A DNA stretch of 64,000 bases from assembly GCF_024436035.1 (NCBI RefSeq), contig NZ_JANFNG010000001.1, positions 79,689 to 143,688 on the forward strand. The letters run 5' to 3'. Shown one piece after another: positions 33,667 through 64,000 of the stretch (positions are counted from its first letter, which is position 1; the number at the start of each line of letters is the position of its first letter). The notes below the pieces were generated by a model that saw only the letters and a list, made by a program, of their open reading frames with translations, was not told the origin of the DNA and did not search any database. Source of the stretch: Streptomyces humicola. GTDB lineage: Bacteria; Actinomycetota; Actinomycetes; Streptomycetales; Streptomycetaceae. The translations under genes were made by a program, and so were the position numbers.

Positions 33667-34120
33667 TCGACGGGACTGACTGTATGCGGTTGCCACGACA
33701 TGCCGCCGCTGCGGTCCGACCTGTCCGTGGTTGGAGTTGGAAGGCGTGGATCAAGGCCAGGTCGCCCTCGCCGGTAGTCTGACGTCATCCTCCATCTTGG
33801 CCTGCCTTTATGCGTGCGGGAGGAGAGTTCGGCGGCTTGCTTCGCGGCTCGTTCGGCCGCATGTTCTACTCGCTCCGTACATCCTTGGACGCTCTACCAG
33901 CTCAGCGCGCTCATCGCCGAGGTCAGCGATCCGTGCAATGGGGTTTGGCGCATCTGGGGGGGCGCGAAGTGCTGCGTGGAGGCCGGGGGAGTACGCGCGC
34001 AGGTGGGAGCGGAGTCCCGATGGCCGCTGCCCGCTACCGACTCAGGACACTAGGTTGGCCAGGCGCATCTCCAATGATGCGCGTGCCCCGGTCTTGAGCT
34101 GCTGGTCTGCGGTCTCGTGG
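33667..34120. other. Intergenic, no gene recognised
   Basis: This gap lies between the convergent phosphonate operon and dienelactone hydrolase gene. It contains open frames without recognisable domains. GGTCCGACC occurs at 33713-33721 but is not near a promoter and is treated as a chance match to the 59-62 kb motif. Confidence 0.4.
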
Positions 34121-56004: not shown

Positions 56005-56056
56005 CCTGCGTCGCAGCGACGCCGGGCTTCGCAGCGAAAGAAGCACCCTTGCCTAT

Positions 56057-56065
56057 GGTCAGGCC
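56057..56065. promoter_or_regulatory. Imperfect copy of the FadR-type operator
   Basis: TAT-GGTCAGGCC-ATGAC differs from the GGTC-N-GACC motif of 58991-62261 by one base. It lies 43 bases before the quinone oxidoreductase start, next to an AT-rich stretch (GTATTTTTAATGG) that may be the promoter. Confidence 0.3.
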
Positions 56066-56107
56066 ATGACGTATTTTTAATGGTACATCCTTTTGTCGGA
56101 GGTTGCG

Positions 56108-57088
56108 TTGCAGGCAGTCGTCTTGCGCGAGTTCGGCTCGGCGCGGAACTTGCTGTACGAGGAGCACCCCGACCCCGTCACACGACCGGGATGGACGACG
56201 GTGCGCCTCCGTGCCAGCGGGCTGAACTGGCATGACGTACTTGTCCGCCAGGGGAGGTACCGGTCTCCGCTGCCGCACGTCATCGGCGCCGACGGTGCGG
56301 GAGTCTGCACCGACACCGGTGAGGAAGTCCTGATCCTGCCGTCGCTGTGGTGGGGAGACGACCAGAGCGCGCCGGCACCCGAGTGGCGGATCCTCGGTGA
56401 TCGCCACGCGGGGACGTACGCAGAGCTGGTGCAGGTACCGACCGAGTGCGTGCTGCCCAAGCCCACCGGGCTGAGCTGGACCGAGGCGGCTGCCCTGCCC
56501 CTGGTGGGTCTGACAACCTACCGCGCCCTGTTCACCCGCGGCCGACTGCGTGCGGGAGAGTCGGTGCTCGTGCTCGGGGCCGGCGGGGGCGTCGCCACGA
56601 TGGCGGTCACGCTCGCCGCCGGCATCGGCGCCCGGGTCGTGGTCACCTCGTCCTCCATGGACAAGATCGCGCAGGCTCAGTGCCGTGGTGCCGCCGGAGG
56701 CGTTCTCTACACGGACGCCGACTGGGCCGAGTCGGCCAGGGAACTCTCCGTCGGAGGCCGTGGCTTCGATCTAGTGCTGGACTCGGCCGGGTGCTGGTCG
56801 GACTCCGTGCGGGCGCTGCGTCCGGGCGGGCGGCTGGTCGTGCTGGGCGCGTCCCGAGACGAACACCCGCTACTCGACGCGCGGAAGTTCTACTTCGGCC
56901 AGTACGACCTGCTCGGCAGCACCATGGGCAGTCCCCGCGACTTCCGCGGGCTCCTCTCCCTTCTCCACAGCCACAGCATTCCGCCGCCGGCGATCGACAG
57001 GGTCTTCCCGCTCGACCAGGCCGCAGCGGCGCACGAGTACATGGAACAGGGCAGCGGGTTCGGGAAGCTCGTTCTGACCCATGCCTGA
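56108..57088 (+). CDS. Zinc-free medium-chain quinone oxidoreductase-like dehydrogenase
   Basis: A 326-residue MDR-superfamily protein. It has a GroES-like N-terminal half (LREFGSARNLLYEEHPD, LRASGLNWHDVLVRQGRY, HVIGADGAGVC) and a nucleotide-binding half with VLVLGAGGGVATMAV and DLVLDSAGCWSDSVRAL. Catalytic zinc ligands are not evident, as expected for the quinone oxidoreductase branch. TTG 56108 is the likely start, since CGGAGG stands five bases before it. It leads a two-gene unit with the enoyl-CoA hydratase 75 bases downstream. Confidence 0.85.
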   Translation: MQAVVLREFGSARNLLYEEHPDPVTRPGWTTVRLRASGLNWHDVLVRQGRYRSPLPHVIGADGAGVCTDTGEEVLILPSLWWGDDQSAPAPEWRILGDRHAGTYAELVQVPTECVLPKPTGLSWTEAAALPLVGLTTYRALFTRGRLRAGESVLVLGAGGGVATMAVTLAAGIGARVVVTSSSMDKIAQAQCRGAAGGVLYTDADWAESARELSVGGRGFDLVLDSAGCWSDSVRALRPGGRLVVLGASRDEHPLLDARKFYFGQYDLLGSTMGSPRDFRGLLSLLHSHSIPPPAIDRVFPLDQAAAAHEYMEQGSGFGKLVLTHA

Positions 57089-57163: not shown

Positions 57164-57949
57164 ATGACGGAGAAGCGGGTCCGTTACGCGGTGGACGAGA
57201 AGGGAGCCGCCTTCGTCACCCTTGATCACCCTCAGACACGAAATGCCCTCAGCGACGAACTGCTCGACGACCTGCTGGGCGCGCTGGAGGAGGCGCAGCG
57301 GGACGAGGCGGTGCGAGTCGTCGTGCTCAGCTCCTCCCACGACCGCATCTTTTCCTCTGGCGGCAATCTCAAGGCGTTCGCGGATGTCCGGGCCGCGATC
57401 ACAAAGTACGCCGGGCTGTATCGCTTCCCGCGCCTGTTCCGGCTGATCGGTGCTTTGGGGAAGCCGGTCATCTGCGCGGCCAACGGAGATGCCCTGGCGG
57501 GGGCGTTCGGTCTTGCCCTGGCCTGTGATCTCGTCATAGCGAAGGAGTCGGTGCGGTTCGGCTGCCCGGAGATCAACGTCGGCGTGTTCCCGTTCATGAT
57601 CTCGGCCCTCATCTACCGGAACATCGGCCGAATGAAGGCCAACGAGCTCATGATGCTGGGAGAGCTGATCAGCGCCCGGGAGGCGCACGACCTGGGAATC
57701 GTCAACGCAGTCGTTCCGGACGAGGAGTTCGACGAAGCGGTCGTCAGGTGGGCGCACAAGGTTGCCGCTAAGTCGCCACTGCTGATGAAGCTGGGCAAGG
57801 ATGCCATCAACGCCACCCGGGACCTCGCTCTTCACGAGGCGCTTGACGTGCTGCAGGCGCAACTCGCCCTTGCCTTCACGACCGAGGACATGGCCGAGGG
57901 TGTCAGTGCGTTCCAGGAGAAGCGCCAGCCGAACTGGCAGATGCGGTGA
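57164..57949 (+). CDS. Enoyl-CoA hydratase/isomerase family protein
   Basis: A 261-residue crotonase-fold protein. The first oxyanion segment is DRIFSSGGNLKAF, the second is ANGDALAGAFGLALACD, and one catalytic glutamate is present in FGCPEINVGVFP. The first catalytic Glu of classical hydratases is replaced in the AGAFG segment, so the enzyme may be an isomerase, a hydrolase or a hydratase with altered chemistry. ATG 57164 follows AAGGGGAG. It shares the unit with the quinone oxidoreductase and ends before a clear hairpin. Confidence 0.85.
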   Translation: MTEKRVRYAVDEKGAAFVTLDHPQTRNALSDELLDDLLGALEEAQRDEAVRVVVLSSSHDRIFSSGGNLKAFADVRAAITKYAGLYRFPRLFRLIGALGKPVICAANGDALAGAFGLALACDLVIAKESVRFGCPEINVGVFPFMISALIYRNIGRMKANELMMLGELISAREAHDLGIVNAVVPDEEFDEAVVRWAHKVAAKSPLLMKLGKDAINATRDLALHEALDVLQAQLALAFTTEDMAEGVSAFQEKRQPNWQMR

Positions 57950-58182: not shown

Positions 58183-58962
58183 TCATGCTCCGCCCGCGAC
58201 CGAGATCTCGGTGCGCTTGTCCACCTTGAGGACCGCGGCGGCGTAGCTGTGCACGTGCCGGTTCATGCGGCGGACCGCCGCGTCGGGGTCCTGAGCCCGA
58301 ATCGCCTTGGTGATCGAGCGGTGAGCGCGTACCGTCAGACGGCGCACTTCCTGGTCCACGAACCGCTCGTTCTCGGTGGCGGTGTAGATCGCTTGGGACA
58401 GGGCGGTCATGAAGCCGGTGAGGAGCTCGTTGTGGCTCGCGGTCGCGACGGCCACGTGCCAATCGACATTGGCCTGGAGGAATGCCGCCAACGGACTGCC
58501 GTCGTCGGCGATCGCGTCGTTCGCGGCATCGAGTGCGTCGAGGTCCTCGGCGGTCCGGTGCAGGGCGGCGAGCTGGGCGCAGTAGGGTTCGATCGCCTCG
58601 CGCGTCTCCAAAAGCGCGGACAGCCGGATCTGGCGTCCACGGATCAGCAGGCTCACGGAGCTTGCGACCGCGTCCTTGTTCGGACGCTGCACGAAGGCAC
58701 CGCCGGCGCGACCCGTCTTGATTCGGACCAGGCCCTGCACTTCCAGGATGCGCAGAGCCTCCCGGATGGTGGCGCGACTCATCTGCGTCTGAACCACGAG
58801 TTCGCGCTCGGGGGGCAGAGCAGCGCCTTCCGCGAACTCGCCGCTCAGGATGCGTTCGCGCAGCTCTCTGGCAAGCACGTCCGAGGCCTTGGGCACCTCC
58901 ATGGGCGCGAGCTGGATAGCGGACTGCCTGCTTCCGGACGAGCGGGCGGTTGCCTCAGGCAC
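58183..58962 (-). CDS. FadR-subfamily GntR regulator, copy 1
   Basis: A 259-residue GntR/FadR protein. The winged helix has LRERILSGEFAEGAALPPER, VVQTQMSRATIREALRILE and GLVRIKTGRAGGAFV. The C-terminal FCD domain has likely metal-binding residues: Asp/His in NVDWHVAVATASHNELL, and a His in RMNRHVHSYAAAV. It is close to the gene at 59131-59913 along the whole length, a tandem duplication. GTG 58962 follows GGGGAG. The operator GGTCCGACC lies 28 bases upstream, so autoregulation is likely. Acyl-CoA or another acid may be the ligand. Confidence 0.9.
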   Translation of the reverse strand: MPEATARSSGSRQSAIQLAPMEVPKASDVLARELRERILSGEFAEGAALPPERELVVQTQMSRATIREALRILEVQGLVRIKTGRAGGAFVQRPNKDAVASSVSLLIRGRQIRLSALLETREAIEPYCAQLAALHRTAEDLDALDAANDAIADDGSPLAAFLQANVDWHVAVATASHNELLTGFMTALSQAIYTATENERFVDQEVRRLTVRAHRSITKAIRAQDPDAAVRRMNRHVHSYAAAVLKVDKRTEISVAGGA

Positions 58963-58990
58963 GGTCTCTCCCCGTGGTTCATTTGCTAAT

Positions 58991-58999
58991 GGTCCGACC
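58991..58999. promoter_or_regulatory. FadR-type operator, site 1
   Basis: TAAT-GGTCCGACC-TAAGTCA. The palindrome GGTC-N-GACC, followed by T, fits the TGGT-N3-ACC pattern of FadR-subfamily regulators. It lies upstream of the first FadR paralogue. Confidence 0.6.
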
Positions 59000-59130
59000 T
59001 AAGTCACCTCAATCTAACATACGCGATCGCGGCGGTCGCGAACGGATTGGAGCAAGAGCACCTTGGCGTTCCGGAGCCGACGACCGTCCCATCCAGCGAT
59101 CACCCGCGCGCTGTCAGGCCCCGGCTTCGG

Positions 59131-59913
59131 TCATTCACTACCCGGAACCGCGATCTCGGTGCGCTCCTCGATCTTGAGGACCGCGGCGGCGTAGCTGTGC
59201 ACGTGCCGGTTCATGCGGCGGACCGCCGCGTCGGGGTCCTGAGCCCGAATCGCCTTGGTGATCGAGCGGTGCGCCCGTGCCGTCAGGCGTCGTACCTCAG
59301 CGTCGACGAACCGCTCGTTTTCCGTGGCGGTGTAGATCGCGCGGGACAGGGAGGCCATGAAGCCGGCAAGGAGCTCGTTGCGGCTCGCGGTTGCGACGGC
59401 CACGTGCCAGTCGACGTTGGCCTGGAGGAATGCCGCAAGGTTTCCGTTCACCTCGTCGAGTGCCGCGTTCGCGGCCTCCAGGGCCACGAGGTCGTCGTCC
59501 GTTCGATTCACTGCGGCCAGCTTGGCGCAGTAGGGCTCGATCGCCTCGCGTGTCTCGAGGAGCGAGGAGAACCGGATCTGCTGGCCGCGGATCAACAGGC
59601 TCACGGAGCCCGCAACGGACTCCTTACCCGGGCGCTGCACGAAAGCGCCGCCTGCGCGACCCGTCTTGATCCGGACCAGGCCCTGGACCTCGAGGATGCG
59701 CAGGGCTTCCCTCACTGTGGCGCGGCTCATCTGTGTCTGGACGACGATCTCACGCTCGGGGGGTAGGGCGGAGCCTTCGGCGAATTCGCCGTTCAGTATG
59801 CGTTCACGCAGTTCGCCCGCGAGCACGTCCGAGGATTTTGGGACCTCCATGGGGGCGAGCTGGATCGCGGACTGCCTGTTGCCGGATCGGCGGGCAGGTG
59901 CGGCCTCAGGCAT
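59131..59913 (-). CDS. FadR-subfamily GntR regulator, copy 2
   Basis: A 260-residue paralogue of the preceding gene, with almost identical DNA-binding and FCD domains (SRATVREALRILEVQGLVRI; NVDWHVAVATASRNELL; RMNRHVHSYAAAVLK). Differences cluster in the middle of the FCD domain (NRTDDDLVALEAANAALDEVN), which suggests ligand divergence with a kept DNA site. ATG 59913 follows CAGGAG. Its promoter carries GGTCTGACC. Both copies have intact frames, so neither looks silent. Confidence 0.9.
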   Translation of the reverse strand: MPEAAPARRSGNRQSAIQLAPMEVPKSSDVLAGELRERILNGEFAEGSALPPEREIVVQTQMSRATVREALRILEVQGLVRIKTGRAGGAFVQRPGKESVAGSVSLLIRGQQIRFSSLLETREAIEPYCAKLAAVNRTDDDLVALEAANAALDEVNGNLAAFLQANVDWHVAVATASRNELLAGFMASLSRAIYTATENERFVDAEVRRLTARAHRSITKAIRAQDPDAAVRRMNRHVHSYAAAVLKIEERTEIAVPGSE

Positions 59914-59937
59914 GGTTGCTGCTCCTGACACACTGGT

Positions 59938-59946
59938 GGTCTGACC
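59938..59946. promoter_or_regulatory. FadR-type operator, site 2
   Basis: TGGT-GGTCTGACC-TGAGTTA, 24 bases upstream of the second FadR paralogue. The bases after the palindrome (T-AGT-A) are shared with site 1. Confidence 0.6.
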
Positions 59947-60041
59947 TGAGTTACTGTAAGACCTCTAAACCACGATTGTGCCGTGTTGTTCCGCGAGTGG
60001 TACCCGGGTGATCCCGGCGGTGGTCCGCGCGATCAGGCGGT

Positions 60042-61055
60042 TCAACGGGCGAAGGCCTCGGTGATCGCCTCGGTGTTCTCCGCGACCCGCCCAGGGGGGA
60101 GGGTGAAGCTCGGCGAGTAGAGCGCGGCGTGGTCGTAGCGCTTCTCCAGCGCCGGCAGGGCATCGCGGACCTCGTCGACGGTGCCGGCCACGGCCATCTG
60201 CGCAAGCATCGCGTCCGAGACCGCGTCGACCATTCCCTGGTGGTCGCCGGCGCGGAATGCAGCCTGGATCGCGGCGGCCTCGGCCGCGAACCCGGAGACT
60301 TCCATCACCGGTCCGTACGCCTTGGGCGCGACGTAGAACGCGATTTGGGCAGCGGCCTCCCGGCGGGCGGTCGCGGTGTCATCGGCGATCGCACAGATGA
60401 TGACGCCTTTGAGCTTGATCTCCTCGGGCGACCGGCCGGCCTTCTCGGCGCCGCGGGCGATCGCGGGCCGGGCGACGTCGTCGAGGTACCGGTCGGTGAT
60501 GGTGGGGTGGCAGATCAGTCCGTCCGAGACCCGGCCGGCCACCTCGATCATCCGGGCGTTCACACCGGCGGTATAGACGGGGATCGAGGGGCGCAGCGGT
60601 GGCTGGATGTCGGCGGTGGGGTTGATGTCGACGGAGTAGAAGCGACCTTCGTGCCTGACCGGCCCCTCGTGCAGGCGCCAGAGCCGACGCAGCAGCGGGA
60701 CGAGCTCCTCCATCCTGGTGGCCGGGCCGTCGGGGTCCTTGACGCCGTGCCAGCCCTGCATCATCCGGCGGGTGCCGGTGCCCAGCCCCAGCGTGAGCCG
60801 GCCGTCGCTCATCTCGTCCAGGAAGCGGGCGTCATTGGCAAGCACCAGGGGAGAGCGCCCCACGGCATAAGCGATCGCCGATCCCACGCCGATCCGGGTC
60901 GTGGCGGCGGCCATTGCCGCCACGGAGACGACGGCGGAGCGGTGCAGGAACTCCCCGGACCACGCCGCATCGAACCCGGCCGCCTCCGCGCGCCGGGTGA
61001 TCTTCTGGGTCTCCTTGAGCCCGCCGGCAAGAACGGTGATGCCTCGAGTGGTCAT
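60042..61055 (-). CDS. LLM-class (F420-dependent type) oxidoreductase
   Basis: A 337-residue luciferase-like TIM-barrel oxidoreductase. Motifs are AEAAGFDAAWSGEF near the start, ATTRIGVGSAIAYAVGRSPL, LDEMSDGRLTLGLGTGTRRMM and YTAGVNARMIEVAGRVSDGL. The pattern is that of actinobacterial F420-dependent enzymes, though an FMN-dependent monooxygenase cannot be ruled out. ATG 61055 follows GAAAGG. It is divergent from a second LLM gene, with the FadR-type operator between them. Confidence 0.87.
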   Translation of the reverse strand: MTTRGITVLAGGLKETQKITRRAEAAGFDAAWSGEFLHRSAVVSVAAMAAATTRIGVGSAIAYAVGRSPLVLANDARFLDEMSDGRLTLGLGTGTRRMMQGWHGVKDPDGPATRMEELVPLLRRLWRLHEGPVRHEGRFYSVDINPTADIQPPLRPSIPVYTAGVNARMIEVAGRVSDGLICHPTITDRYLDDVARPAIARGAEKAGRSPEEIKLKGVIICAIADDTATARREAAAQIAFYVAPKAYGPVMEVSGFAAEAAAIQAAFRAGDHQGMVDAVSDAMLAQMAVAGTVDEVRDALPALEKRYDHAALYSPSFTLPPGRVAENTEAITEAFAR

Positions 61056-61117
61056 GCCAACGCCTTTCACGCCCGCGCCCGGCCGCTACCGGGACTCCCG
61101 CCCCTGCAAGAATGAAT

Positions 61118-61126
61118 GGTCAGACC
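61118..61126. promoter_or_regulatory. FadR-type operator, site 3
   Basis: GAAT-GGTCAGACC-TTATTAT, in the divergent region of the two LLM genes (61056-61246). The adjoining TTATTAT could be a -10 element for the rightward gene. One site could control both directions. Confidence 0.6.
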
Positions 61127-61246
61127 TTATTATGCAACCCGGAGAGGCCGGTGCGATCCGACTCTCACGGTGTCCCGTTCGACTTTGGTCATACCGTAAC
61201 CGGCGTAAGTGAGCCGGCTCGCTAGGGATTGGAAGGTGGCTGCTTC

Positions 61247-62179
61247 ATGGCACCGCTCAAGCTGGGCATCTCGGACCAGGATGGCTTCACCACGCCCGAC
61301 CCCCGGGTCCGACGGCGACTGCTCGACCGAGTCGTGGAGGCAGGGCTGGACCACGTGACCATGGGAGACCACATCAGCTTCCACGACGGGAGCGGCTTCG
61401 ATGGCATGATCAGCGCGACCACCGTGCTGTCCTCGCACGACCGGTTGTCGGTGATCATCGGGGTTTACCTGCTGGGGCTGCGCCACCCGATGCTGGCCGC
61501 CCGGCAGTTGTCCACGCTGAGCCAGACGGCGCCCGGACGGCTCACGCTCGGTGTCGGCGTGGCCGGTGAGGACCGCCGCGAGGTCAGCAACTCCGGTGTC
61601 GATCCGAAGACCCGGGGTCGCCGCCTCGATGAGGCGCTGATGCTGGTCCGGCGGCTGCTGGACGGCGAGGAGGTCACGCACCACGGAGAGTTCTTCCGAC
61701 TCGACGAGGCCCGGATCCTCCCGACGCCGGAGCCGAGGATCCCGATCGTCATCGGTGGCAAGGGCGATGTCGCGGTCCGTCGCACCGCCCAGTTCGGCGA
61801 CGGCTGGTTGGGCATCTTCTGCTCCGCGCGCCGGTTCGCGGAGACTCGGCAGCGGATCCTCGAGGCGGCGGCGGGCCTCGATCGCGAAGCACCGTCGTGG
61901 TTCGGGGTGAACGTCTGGTGCGGATTGGACGCCGACGCGGCACAGGCCCGCGAGATGCTGGCCGCGAAGATGGAGGGCCTCTACCACGTGCCCTATGAGA
62001 AGTTCCAGTACATCGCCCCGGCCGGGACCCCGGAGCAGGTAGCGGAGTTGCTGCAGCCCTTCGCCGAGTCGGGAGCCGAGTACATCACGCTGATCCCTGT
62101 CGGCTCGTCCATCGAGGCGGAGATCGACGCGGTGGCGGAGGTGAAGGAGCGACTCGGGAAGGCCGTTGGCGCGACGTGA
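61247..62179 (+). CDS. LLM-class oxidoreductase, second type
   Basis: A 310-residue luciferase-like protein that is not a close paralogue of the one at 60042-61055. Motifs are GLDHVTMGDHISFHDGSG, SHDRLSVIIGVYLLGLRHP, LSQTAPGRLTLGVGVAGEDR and RIPIVIGGKGDVAVRRTAQFGDGW. It likely uses F420 or FMN. ATG 61247 is chosen, with GGAAGG ten bases before; TTG 61229 is also in frame. The two LLM genes, acyl-CoA dehydrogenase and synthetase probably serve one degradative route. Confidence 0.87.
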   Translation: MAPLKLGISDQDGFTTPDPRVRRRLLDRVVEAGLDHVTMGDHISFHDGSGFDGMISATTVLSSHDRLSVIIGVYLLGLRHPMLAARQLSTLSQTAPGRLTLGVGVAGEDRREVSNSGVDPKTRGRRLDEALMLVRRLLDGEEVTHHGEFFRLDEARILPTPEPRIPIVIGGKGDVAVRRTAQFGDGWLGIFCSARRFAETRQRILEAAAGLDREAPSWFGVNVWCGLDADAAQAREMLAAKMEGLYHVPYEKFQYIAPAGTPEQVAELLQPFAESGAEYITLIPVGSSIEAEIDAVAEVKERLGKAVGAT

Positions 62180-62252
62180 GACCGTGGCTGCGCGGTCGAC
62201 CACGGCACCGATCGGCTCGGCCAAGAGCAGGCTTCCGACGGGCAACTGATTT

Positions 62253-62261
62253 GGTCTGACC
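62253..62261. promoter_or_regulatory. FadR-type operator, site 4
   Basis: ATTT-GGTCTGACC-TATAGTA, 39 bases upstream of the acyl-CoA dehydrogenase start. The overlapping TATAGT (62262-62267) is a good -10 hexamer, so a bound regulator would cover the promoter. Confidence 0.65.
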
Positions 62262-62300
62262 TATAGTATGGTTTGAACTCAGACCGACGAGGTGGTGACC

Positions 62301-63476
62301 ATGGACCTGTCCGACGATCCTGACGAGGCGCAGTTCCGGCACGACGTCCGGACCTGGCTCCACAACAGCCTCCCCAAGCTCCCTTGGCCGGAGCCGGCCG
62401 ACCTTGGGGCGAAGGCGCCCTTTTGGCGGCAGTGGCAGCGGATGCTCTTCGATGCGGGCTACGCCGGTCTCACCTGGCCGAAGGAGTACGGCGGCCAGGG
62501 GCTCGACGAGCGGATGCGCGCAATCTTCACGGAGGAGTGCGATCACGCAGGTGCTCCGGAACGGTTGAACACCATCGGCGAGGATTTCGCCGGGCCCACC
62601 ATCGCGCACTTCGGCACCGAGGCGCAGAAGGCGCGGTACCTGCGGCCGATCCTGACCGGCGAGGAGATCTGGTGCCAGCTGTTCTCCGAACCTGACTCCG
62701 GATCCGACCTCGCCTCACTGCGCACCAAGGCGACCAAGGCCGACGGCGGCTGGCGGATCCAGGGGCAGAAGATCTGGACCAGCCGCGCGCAACTGGCCGC
62801 CCACGCGATCCTGCTGGCGCGCACCGGCGGCGGGGAGCGCCACAAGGGCATCACCTACTTCCTCCTGCCCATGGACAGCGACGGCGTCACCGTCCGCCCT
62901 CTTGCCCACATGTTGGGTGAAGCGGAGTTCAACGAGGTGTTTCTCGACGAGGTCTTCGTATCCGACGACGCCGTGGTGGGCGAGGTCGATGGCGGCTGGA
63001 AGGTGGCCATGGCGACACTGGCCTTCGAGCGGGTCGCCATCGCCACCGGCCGCGTCAACACCACAAAGGCGATCGAGGACATCATCGCCGACATCCGCAC
63101 CAGGAAGTCCGCCGATGGCAGCCCGCTCGGCGCCGACCCGCACGTGCGGCAGAAGGTCGCCGACCTGTGGGGGCGCGCGCTGGTGCACCGCACGATCAGC
63201 CAGCGGGTGATCTCCGGTGCGGAGTCCGACGAACTGCCCGGGCCGGTTACGTCGATTGGAAAGCTCTACTTCTGCCCGCTGGTGGAGGAGCTCGCCGACT
63301 TCCGCCTCTCCCTTGAGCCGCTGGGCGGCCAGTTCGCTCTGGACGACGAACGTGCCGAAGCGCAGAGGTGGCTGCGGCTCGCCAACCAGTCCCGGGGCAC
63401 CGCGATCGCAGGTGGCTCGACCTTCATCCAGCGCAACATCGTCGCCGAGCGGATTCTCGGCATGCCGAGGAGCTGA
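62301..63476 (+). CDS. Acyl-CoA dehydrogenase
   Basis: A 391-residue flavoprotein of the acyl-CoA dehydrogenase family. Motifs are GLTWPKEYGGQGLDERM, the flavin motif CQLFSEPDSGSDLASLRTKA, GQKIWTSRAQLA and the C-terminal QSRGTAIAGGSTFIQRNIVAERILGMPR. This resembles the large group of actinobacterial enzymes that act in steroid or branched-acid side-chain breakdown, often as heterodimers, although no partner subunit is seen here. ATG 62301 follows GAGG. The next gene begins two bases after the stop. Confidence 0.9.
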   Translation: MDLSDDPDEAQFRHDVRTWLHNSLPKLPWPEPADLGAKAPFWRQWQRMLFDAGYAGLTWPKEYGGQGLDERMRAIFTEECDHAGAPERLNTIGEDFAGPTIAHFGTEAQKARYLRPILTGEEIWCQLFSEPDSGSDLASLRTKATKADGGWRIQGQKIWTSRAQLAAHAILLARTGGGERHKGITYFLLPMDSDGVTVRPLAHMLGEAEFNEVFLDEVFVSDDAVVGEVDGGWKVAMATLAFERVAIATGRVNTTKAIEDIIADIRTRKSADGSPLGADPHVRQKVADLWGRALVHRTISQRVISGAESDELPGPVTSIGKLYFCPLVEELADFRLSLEPLGGQFALDDERAEAQRWLRLANQSRGTAIAGGSTFIQRNIVAERILGMPRS

Positions 63477-63477
63477 C

Positions 63478-64000
63478 GTGGTCTACACCTGGCACCCGTC
63501 GCGGGACTACCTGGAGAACTCCAACGTCGCCCGTCTCATGCGCACACTGGGCGTGGCCACCGCCGACGAACTGCGCGCCCGGTCGGTGGCCGACATCGGC
63601 GACTTCTGGGACCGGGTGGTCAAGGACCTCGGCATCCCGTTCCGCACGCCCTACACGGACGTGGTCGATCTCAGCCGCGGTGTCGAGTACCCCGAGTGGT
63701 TCGTCGGGGGCCGGATCAACATCGTCGACGCGGCGCTGACTCGTTGGGCTCGTCAGACCCCCGACGGCATCGCCATCGTGCACGAGAGCGAGGACGGCAC
63801 AGTACGCCGGTTGACCTTCGCCGAGCTCGACGACCAGGTGGCCCGGGCCTGCGCCGGCCTCCGCGCACGGGGCGTCGGCAGGGGCGACGCCGTCGCGATC
63901 TACCTGCCCATGACGCCTGAGGCCGTCGTCGCGACGTACGCCGTGGCAAGCATTGGTGCGATGGCGGTGCCGCTGTTCTCCGGATTCGCGTCCGCCGCCA
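63478..64000 (+). CDS. Acyl-CoA synthetase (AMP-forming), 3' end beyond window
   Basis: The first 174 residues of an AMP-dependent synthetase, open to the end of the window. The start VVYTWHPSRDYLENSNVARL and YPEWFVGGRINIVDAALTRW are of the acetyl/propionyl-CoA synthetase N-terminal (ACAS_N) type, followed by the general LTFAELDDQVARACAGLRARGVGRGD and IYLPMTPEAVVATYAVASIGA. The ATP-binding core lies outside. GTG 63478 is one base after the dehydrogenase stop, so the two genes form an operon. It would activate an acid for the dehydrogenase. Confidence 0.88.
   Translation, partial: MVYTWHPSRDYLENSNVARLMRTLGVATADELRARSVADIGDFWDRVVKDLGIPFRTPYTDVVDLSRGVEYPEWFVGGRINIVDAALTRWARQTPDGIAIVHESEDGTVRRLTFAELDDQVARACAGLRARGVGRGDAVAIYLPMTPEAVVATYAVASIGAMAVPLFSGFASAA

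Follow-up and report, generated by a model that had tools for sequence, protein, structure and literature searches.

Within the 64,000-nucleotide stretch of Streptomyces humicola DNA analysed here (hereafter the window), two tandem paralogous GntR/FCD regulators, R1 and R2, lie among enzyme genes, nearly all of whose promoters carry a copy of one operator-like sequence. Our preferred reading, to which we give a probability of roughly 0.78, is that these proteins are repressors that share this operator and control a local catabolic regulon, with a gene set suited to an alicyclic acid. That the predicted regulon is real is strongly supported by the conservation of its sites at orthologous promoters and by their specificity for the locus. 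An earlier note, made from the letters of this DNA, had described a four-site regulon; the regulon stands, now with cross-species footprinting behind it, whereas the count does not, as a site at 61186 was missed and more sites lie past the end of the window.

Predicted operators and their specificity for the locus

Allowing no mismatch, the 11-mer TGGTCNGACCT occurs in the window at 58990, 59937, 61117 and 62252 only, and the bare core GGTCNGACC at 33713, 46246, 58991, 59938, 61118 and 62253, all six of which the earlier note had placed correctly. The four TGGTCNGACCT sites lie ~6-50 bp 5' of a listed start codon, in agreement with their proposed position upstream of gene starts, and each stands before at least one gene: R1 (58962, minus strand), R2 (59931 as listed, 59913 likelier, minus strand), the divergent LLM pair (61070 minus, 61229 plus) and an acyl-CoA dehydrogenase (62292, plus strand). 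By count alone the core is unremarkable, with 6 matches observed vs 2.9 +/- 1.5 in dinucleotide shuffles (earlier rough estimate, about 2-3 per 64 kb). The predicted operators of the window are as follows.

56056..56066, unstranded: weak operator TGGTCAGGCCA, 37 bp before the MDR oxidoreductase gene (56093); one mismatch; 4.7 bits, rank 45; in relatives, 9 of 15 loci have a stronger site before the corresponding gene
58990..59000, unstranded: operator TGGTCCGACCT, R1 promoter; exact match; weight-matrix rank 3 in 720 kb; position of the own-promoter site of orthologues
59937..59947, unstranded: operator TGGTCTGACCT, R2 promoter; exact core with non-consensus GC-rich flanks; 4.7 bits, rank 44 (15-bp matrix)
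61117..61127, unstranded: operator TGGTCAGACCT, LLM intergenic region (divergent genes); exact match; matrix rank 2
61186..61196, unstranded: second operator TGGTCATACCG, also in the LLM intergenic region, 69 bp away from the one at 61117; matrix rank 4; also matched by the genome-wide pattern
62252..62262, unstranded: operator TGGTCTGACCT, promoter of the acyl-CoA dehydrogenase operon; matrix rank 1; present at orthologous promoters too

The first of these is the degenerate copy that the earlier note had put before 56108. Past the window end, sites were found at 66584/66601, 72768, 73641, 80625 and 91620; the regulon thus exceeds four sites, with about 12 predicted across 36 kb. The window operators fit the FadR-subfamily consensus TNGTNNNACNA / TKGT-N3-ACMA (PMC2230225, PMC4494728), with T rather than A as the outer base on one side of the TGGTCNGACCW sites. 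The palindrome is broken by a conserved T after GACC, which at the window promoters looks, by eye, like overlap with a -10-like sequence. Paired operators comparable to those at 61117 and 61186 occur ~70 bp apart before the regulator in Nocardia and Gordonia loci (TGGTATGACCA + AGGTACGACCA; e.g., L062, L063, L077, L078, L081).

Across the 7.07-Mb genome, TGGTCNGACCT was matched 11 times (reversed control pattern, 14), and 4 of the 11 matches fall within 3.3 kb at the locus, where ~0.003 would be expected by a rough estimate from the seven outside matches; the clustering that had been called notable is indeed so. By comparison, TGGTCNGACC gave 69 matches vs 58 for its reversed control, with no clear excess. 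Because the bare core has no genome-wide excess, the signal is local, and the genome scan advised by the earlier note has a divided outcome, since the bare core is distributed nearly as chance would have it, whereas a flank-aware pattern (WWNGGTMNKACCNWW, see below) is concentrated at the locus. We also built a 15-bp weight matrix from relatives' own-promoter sites alone, none of them from the window, and scanned 720 kb of the window's contig with it. Its ranks 1-6 (62252, 61117, 58990, 61186, 72768 and 66601) all lie within the locus, as do ranks 8 and 10 (73641 and 66584), and the cluster (55.0-93.5 kb in window coordinates, 38 kb) holds 6/6 positions scoring at least 15 and 9/11 scoring at least 12. 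Genome-wide matches outside the cluster yielded no distal regulon member, one (C3:118258) being inside a predicted coding sequence and another (C16:23507) being without a clear promoter position.

The relatives come from a scan of 84,980 species genomes, which returned 51 close actinobacterial relatives of the regulator plus one distant and one unrelated match. A GGT-N3-ACC with an A/T flank, mostly AGGT[C/A]NGACCA-like, is present upstream of, and near, the regulator start in 45 of 50 loci, spanning Amycolatopsis, Frankia, Nocardia, Gordonia, Rhodococcus, Nocardioides, Mycobacterium and others (the L060 site was swapped for a better one at -36 before matrix building). Aligned on the regulator strand, these own-promoter sites read GGTAnnTT-AGGT[C/A]nGACCA, i.e., a -10-like TAnnTT immediately 5' of the operator. 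Positions that were not selected for are also constrained, with C/A at +4 of the spacer in 44/45 sites and G at +6 in 44/45; the outer flanks were likewise unselected. Counts of the bare motif in window and genome do not suffice for the claim, and GGT-N3-ACC alone shows only a modest upstream enrichment (39% vs 18%). In an unbiased search of the relatives' loci for over-represented palindromes, conserved coding sequence drowned out any signal.

With the regulator's own promoter set aside, matrix matches in the relatives number 100 upstream of genes, 14 in coding sequence and 5 in neither, where a third-order Markov model predicts 2 in all. The promoter of one acyl-CoA dehydrogenase (c) has a match in 26 of 37 loci, most with the variant AA[A/T]GGACTGACCAAA, which is also found in the window's genome at 66584 (minus-strand reading). 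Sites at the MDR promoter (9/15 loci) and at the acyl-CoA dehydrogenase a promoter (10/21) are lower bounds, given the simple gene calling in relatives' loci. Two genes beyond the window also have sites: a ligase at ~89820-91691 (window numbering) has TGGTCTGGCCA at 91620, and its relative in other genomes sits within the regulator's cluster behind a site, and TGGTCAGGCCG at 80625 belongs to a gene starting at 80646 that has 85-90% identity to a Nocardia/Gordonia gene preceded by AATGGTCAGTCCTAA.

Two side observations concern these loci. The half-degenerate operator GGACTGACC at the acyl-CoA dehydrogenase c promoter is retained across distant genera, as though a weaker site were selected. In some relatives, a LuxR-type (GerE) regulator gene adjoins either the MDR gene or the GntR regulator (L048:4345-5682 and L046:18169-19671, both minus strand), and a second layer of control is possible there.

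The two regulator copies and a probable conversion tract

58183..58962, minus strand: R1, GntR/FCD transcriptional regulator, 259 amino acids, GTG start; PF00392 62 bits, PF07729 88 bits; 83% identity to R2
59131..59931, minus strand: R2, GntR/FCD transcriptional regulator, 266 amino acids as listed; PF00392 61 bits, PF07729 92 bits
58225..58323, minus strand: 99-bp tract of R1 that encodes HRSITKAIRAQDPDAAVRRMNRHVHSYAAAVLK and matches R2; zero differences in 99 bp
59173..59271, minus strand: 99-bp tract in R2, beginning at H221 and including H243 (two of three presumed metal histidines); zero differences in 99 bp

Both proteins score above the cut-offs for PF00392 (27 bits) and PF07729 (24 bits), and for R2 the ATG at 59913 (MPEA..., level with the R1 start) is probably a better start than the listed one. 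The name 'FadR-type' given to them before holds for the subfamily, on the grounds of a GntR helix-turn-helix plus FCD architecture and a TNGTNNNACNA operator, and fails for orthology to E. coli FadR, which is ruled out by scores below cut-off: the fadR equivalog (TIGR02812 / NF003444) reaches 45 bits for R2 vs cut-offs of 249 and 189, and FadR_C (PF07840) 19.9 bits for R1 vs 23.6, with no listed match for R2.

'Near-identical', as the pair had also been called, overstates an identity of 83% (91% in the helix-turn-helix region, 82% in the FCD model region, 78% in linker plus FCD). Nonetheless, residues R60, R70, T72 and R74 and the wing, which by analogy to FadR we take to contact DNA, are identical in R1 and R2, and so are the presumed metal residues N172, H176, H221 and H243. 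The three histidines, spaced by 45 and 22, are invariant across 30 aligned proteins. An Asp four residues before the first FCD metal histidine is common and is not known to be obligatory; here it is replaced by Asn172 in both copies and every aligned relative, an invariance that is biased since the relatives were retrieved by a peptide pattern that includes Asn172.

Outside the 99-bp tract the R1 and R2 genes are ~82% identical at the DNA level, and synonymous differences affect 65 of 178 conserved residues; the 33 codons of the tract show none of any kind, and a run of this length arose in 0 of 20,000 permutations. Purifying selection on the DNA was rejected as an explanation, the orthologues having no raised codon conservation there. 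The simplest reading is a recent gene conversion in the effector domain, to which an assembly artefact would be the alternative. As the tract spans H221 and H243, the presumed effector site would have been homogenised. The tandem pair offers a small test case for the effect of gene conversion on paralogous regulators.

Nearly all other loci have a single regulator copy. Nocardia sp. RYN_116 has two (L060 and L067, on one contig), which are separated by ~19 kb and form a sister pair in the tree; this second case implies that the duplication happened at least twice or that copies were homogenised later. For R1 and R2 themselves the tree gives no verdict on a sister relation (approximately unbiased test, p 0.49 with the pair held together).

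Proposed control and competing readings

Proteins, sites, site conservation and locus specificity were computed directly, and from them we infer binding, repression, effector and substrate. In the proposed mechanism, dimers of R1 and of R2 would bind the same predicted operator, TGGT-CNG-ACCW, and repress their own genes, both LLM genes, the acyl-CoA dehydrogenase/synthetase operon and operons to ~30 kb past the window. Repression is the most likely mode because the operators overlap or abut -10-like sequences. Derepression would follow when a carboxylate or CoA ester of the pathway binds the FCD domain with its three presumed metal histidines, and the enzymes produced would open the ring of an alicyclic acid, possibly derived from a p-menthane-type monoterpenoid, and then beta-oxidise it. 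Most likely R1 and R2 can stand in for each other, wholly or in part, as was shown for GntR1/GntR2 of Corynebacterium glutamicum, and, we infer, can also form heterodimers.

Several points weigh against this reading, including the possibility of activation considered below. The core of the matrix was fixed by selection, sites having been chosen for GGT-N3-ACC, and only 34 of the 45 are distinct. The IUPAC pattern WWNGGTMNKACCNWW, which has 7 sites in 7.07 Mb with 5 in the locus (reversed control, 1 match per strand), was picked once the matrix was known. Two sites, one at 59937 before R2 and one at 56056 before the MDR gene, reach no more than 4.7 (ranks 44 and 45), owing to the flanks or to a mismatch in the core. 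Finally, several of the enzyme names given below derive from scores under NCBIfam equivalog cut-offs.

A first competing reading is that only one regulator is active on the operators, with the other copy decaying or controlling something else. The single copy of most relatives would fit, as would the features of R2, which departs more from conserved residues (4 vs 1 in R1) and has the longer branch (0.15 vs 0.09). Yet both genes have intact reading frames, retain the presumed DNA-contact residues and have an operator in front, and we consider this reading unlikely.

E. coli FadR activates as well as represses, and R1 and R2 could likewise activate, or activate at some promoters and repress at others. 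Activation is known for C. glutamicum GntR1/2 (PMC2230225), and the placement of sites relative to the -10-like sequence varies between promoters; however, the sites lie over or beside such sequences, where a bound protein usually blocks RNA polymerase, and activation seems decidedly unlikely here.

The two-input switch suggested by the earlier note, in which R1 and R2 would have common operators and diverged effectors and integrate two signals, has gained no positive support and appears improbable. It would accord with the lower identity of linker plus FCD (78%) than of the helix-turn-helix region (91%), with the operator before each copy, and with deviations at conserved positions (H184R and A194S in the FCD domain of R2; V73, in the recognition helix, of R1). 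The differences between the copies at residues 141-164 and 184 also leave some room for it. On the other side, the FCD domains are 82% identical with the same four presumed metal residues, a putative recent conversion tract covers H221 and H243, the densest FCD differences (residues 141-164) are variable among orthologues too, and one copy suffices in almost all other loci. The conversion tract and the conserved metal residues favour a shared effector over the switch. A variant, in which conversion would hold both copies to one set of C-terminal helices and metal histidines, and residues 141-164 together with H184R of R2 would allow the copies to answer different intermediates of an alicyclic or monoterpenoid acid pathway through the same operators, possibly as heterodimers, is slightly less probable still. 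That the sites are functionless matches due to chance or composition, as the near-chance counts of GGTCNGACC in the window and of TGGTCNGACC genome-wide might suggest, is hardly credible, being contradicted by conservation at orthologous promoters and by the matrix ranking.

Gene set and comparison with known systems

The enzyme genes of the proposed regulon that fall within the window are the following.

56093..57088, plus strand: zinc-type MDR oxidoreductase (quinone oxidoreductase/enoyl reductase-like); PF00107, PF08240; PIG3-like below cut-off
57164..57949, plus strand: enoyl-CoA hydratase-family protein; PF00378
60042..61070, minus strand: LLM-class oxidoreductase 1 (luciferase-like, probably F420- or flavin-dependent); PF00296
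61229..62179, plus strand: LLM-class oxidoreductase 2, divergent from LLM 1; PF00296
62292..63476, plus strand: acyl-CoA dehydrogenase most like the large subunit of pimeloyl-CoA dehydrogenase; PF00441/PF02770/PF02771; TIGR03204 203 bits, below cut-off 624
63473..64000 (open reading frame to about 65412 beyond the window), plus strand: acyl-CoA synthetase, 5' part (acetate/acetoacetate--CoA ligase-like), start approximate; PF00501, PF16177

Overall, the acyl-CoA enzymes of the cluster comprise pimeloyl-CoA-dehydrogenase-like and IpdE2-like acyl-CoA dehydrogenases, an acyl-CoA synthetase, two thiolases and a CoA-transferase-like protein, together with an HMG-CoA-lyase-family protein (326 bits, above the cut-off of 246), a BadH-like SDR, several enoyl-CoA hydratase-family proteins, a thioesterase-like protein, an APH-type kinase and an Rv3169-family protein. 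The SDR (71945-72703) has TIGR03206 (BadH) as its top model (312 bits vs cut-off 431), and the open reading frame at 80646-81491 scores 327 bits for badI (cut-off 468) and higher, 345 bits, for the MenB-type NF005637; related genes are found in most relatives' loci. Farther along are the BadI/MenB-like hydrolase, an AliB-like dehydrogenase, an AliA-like ligase and two CYP108-type P450s, one of which scores 496 bits to P450terp.

Such enzymes would probably activate a branched alicyclic acid, open its ring and carry out beta-oxidation, the substrate being deduced from gene content, and a p-menthane monoterpenoid origin can be put forward only tentatively. A plain fatty-acid regulon is less likely given the BadH/BadI/AliA-like genes and P450terp-like P450s, and since the enzymes point to alicyclic acid degradation, an acyl-CoA effector is only a guess. 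Rhodococcus CYP108 enzymes oxidise p-cymene, limonene and terpineols, according to work cited in PMC12294881. The two P450 genes lie near the AliA-like CoA ligase at ~86900-93300 in window positions (C11:166577-167902, C11:171503-172978), and four other loci (L048, L051, L055, L080) have a relative of one of them close to the regulator. The APH-type kinase, which recalls hydroxyacyl-CoA kinases, adjoins the Rv3169-family protein (76284-78361; L032:8284-10358) and is kept with enoyl-CoA hydratase genes in relatives.

None of the open-licence papers searched describes this regulon, and it is apparently undescribed, although its operator type and protein family are already known and the mechanism is an ordinary one. 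Regulator, operator and gene set are common to many actinobacteria, including soil genera, root-nodule Frankia and some mycobacteria, and a defined operator, a gene set and a testable substrate class are now available.

With other FCD members of the FadR subfamily (LldR, PdhR, NanR, TM0439, CitO), R1 and R2 share the GntR helix-turn-helix, the TKGT-N3-ACMA-type operator and a site at the regulator's own gene, and differ from them in being two paralogues in tandem. The histidines of LldR and TM0439 are spaced by 48 and 22 and by 40 and 22 (PMC4746285), i.e., also three with 22 between the last two, whereas NanR has Asp where R1 and R2 have Asn172. E. coli FadR belongs to the same subfamily and has a similar operator, and acyl-CoA enzymes neighbour R1 and R2; however, these have a metal-histidine FCD domain rather than the FadR_C acyl-CoA pocket, and their regulon would be local. 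C. glutamicum GntR1/GntR2 are likewise two paralogous FadR-subfamily regulators with common TNGTNNNACNA-type operators in one actinobacterium (PMC2230225), although they act on gluconate and sugar genes with redundancy proven by deletion, whereas R1 and R2 are adjacent, predicted regulators with a putative gene-conversion tract.

In its enzymes the locus appears to resemble the bad-ali and chcpca clusters for cyclohexane carboxylate (PMC9795900, PMC5906575), with candidate BadH-, BadI-, AliA- and AliB-like proteins and a pimeloyl-CoA dehydrogenase-like enzyme; the GntR/FCD regulator, HMG-CoA lyase-family gene, LLM genes and P450terp-like P450s set it apart. Regulators of bad-ali clusters are MarR (BadR) in Gram-negatives and TetR-like in Gram-positives (PMC9795900), and the Rhodococcus chcpca cluster has TetR-like genes as well (PMC5906575). 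At this locus, the regulator that is conserved, linked and matched by operators is of the GntR/FCD kind, not MarR (BadR) or TetR-like, which, if our reading is true, would represent a second solution beside TetR-like control for cyclohexane carboxylate-type clusters of Gram-positives.

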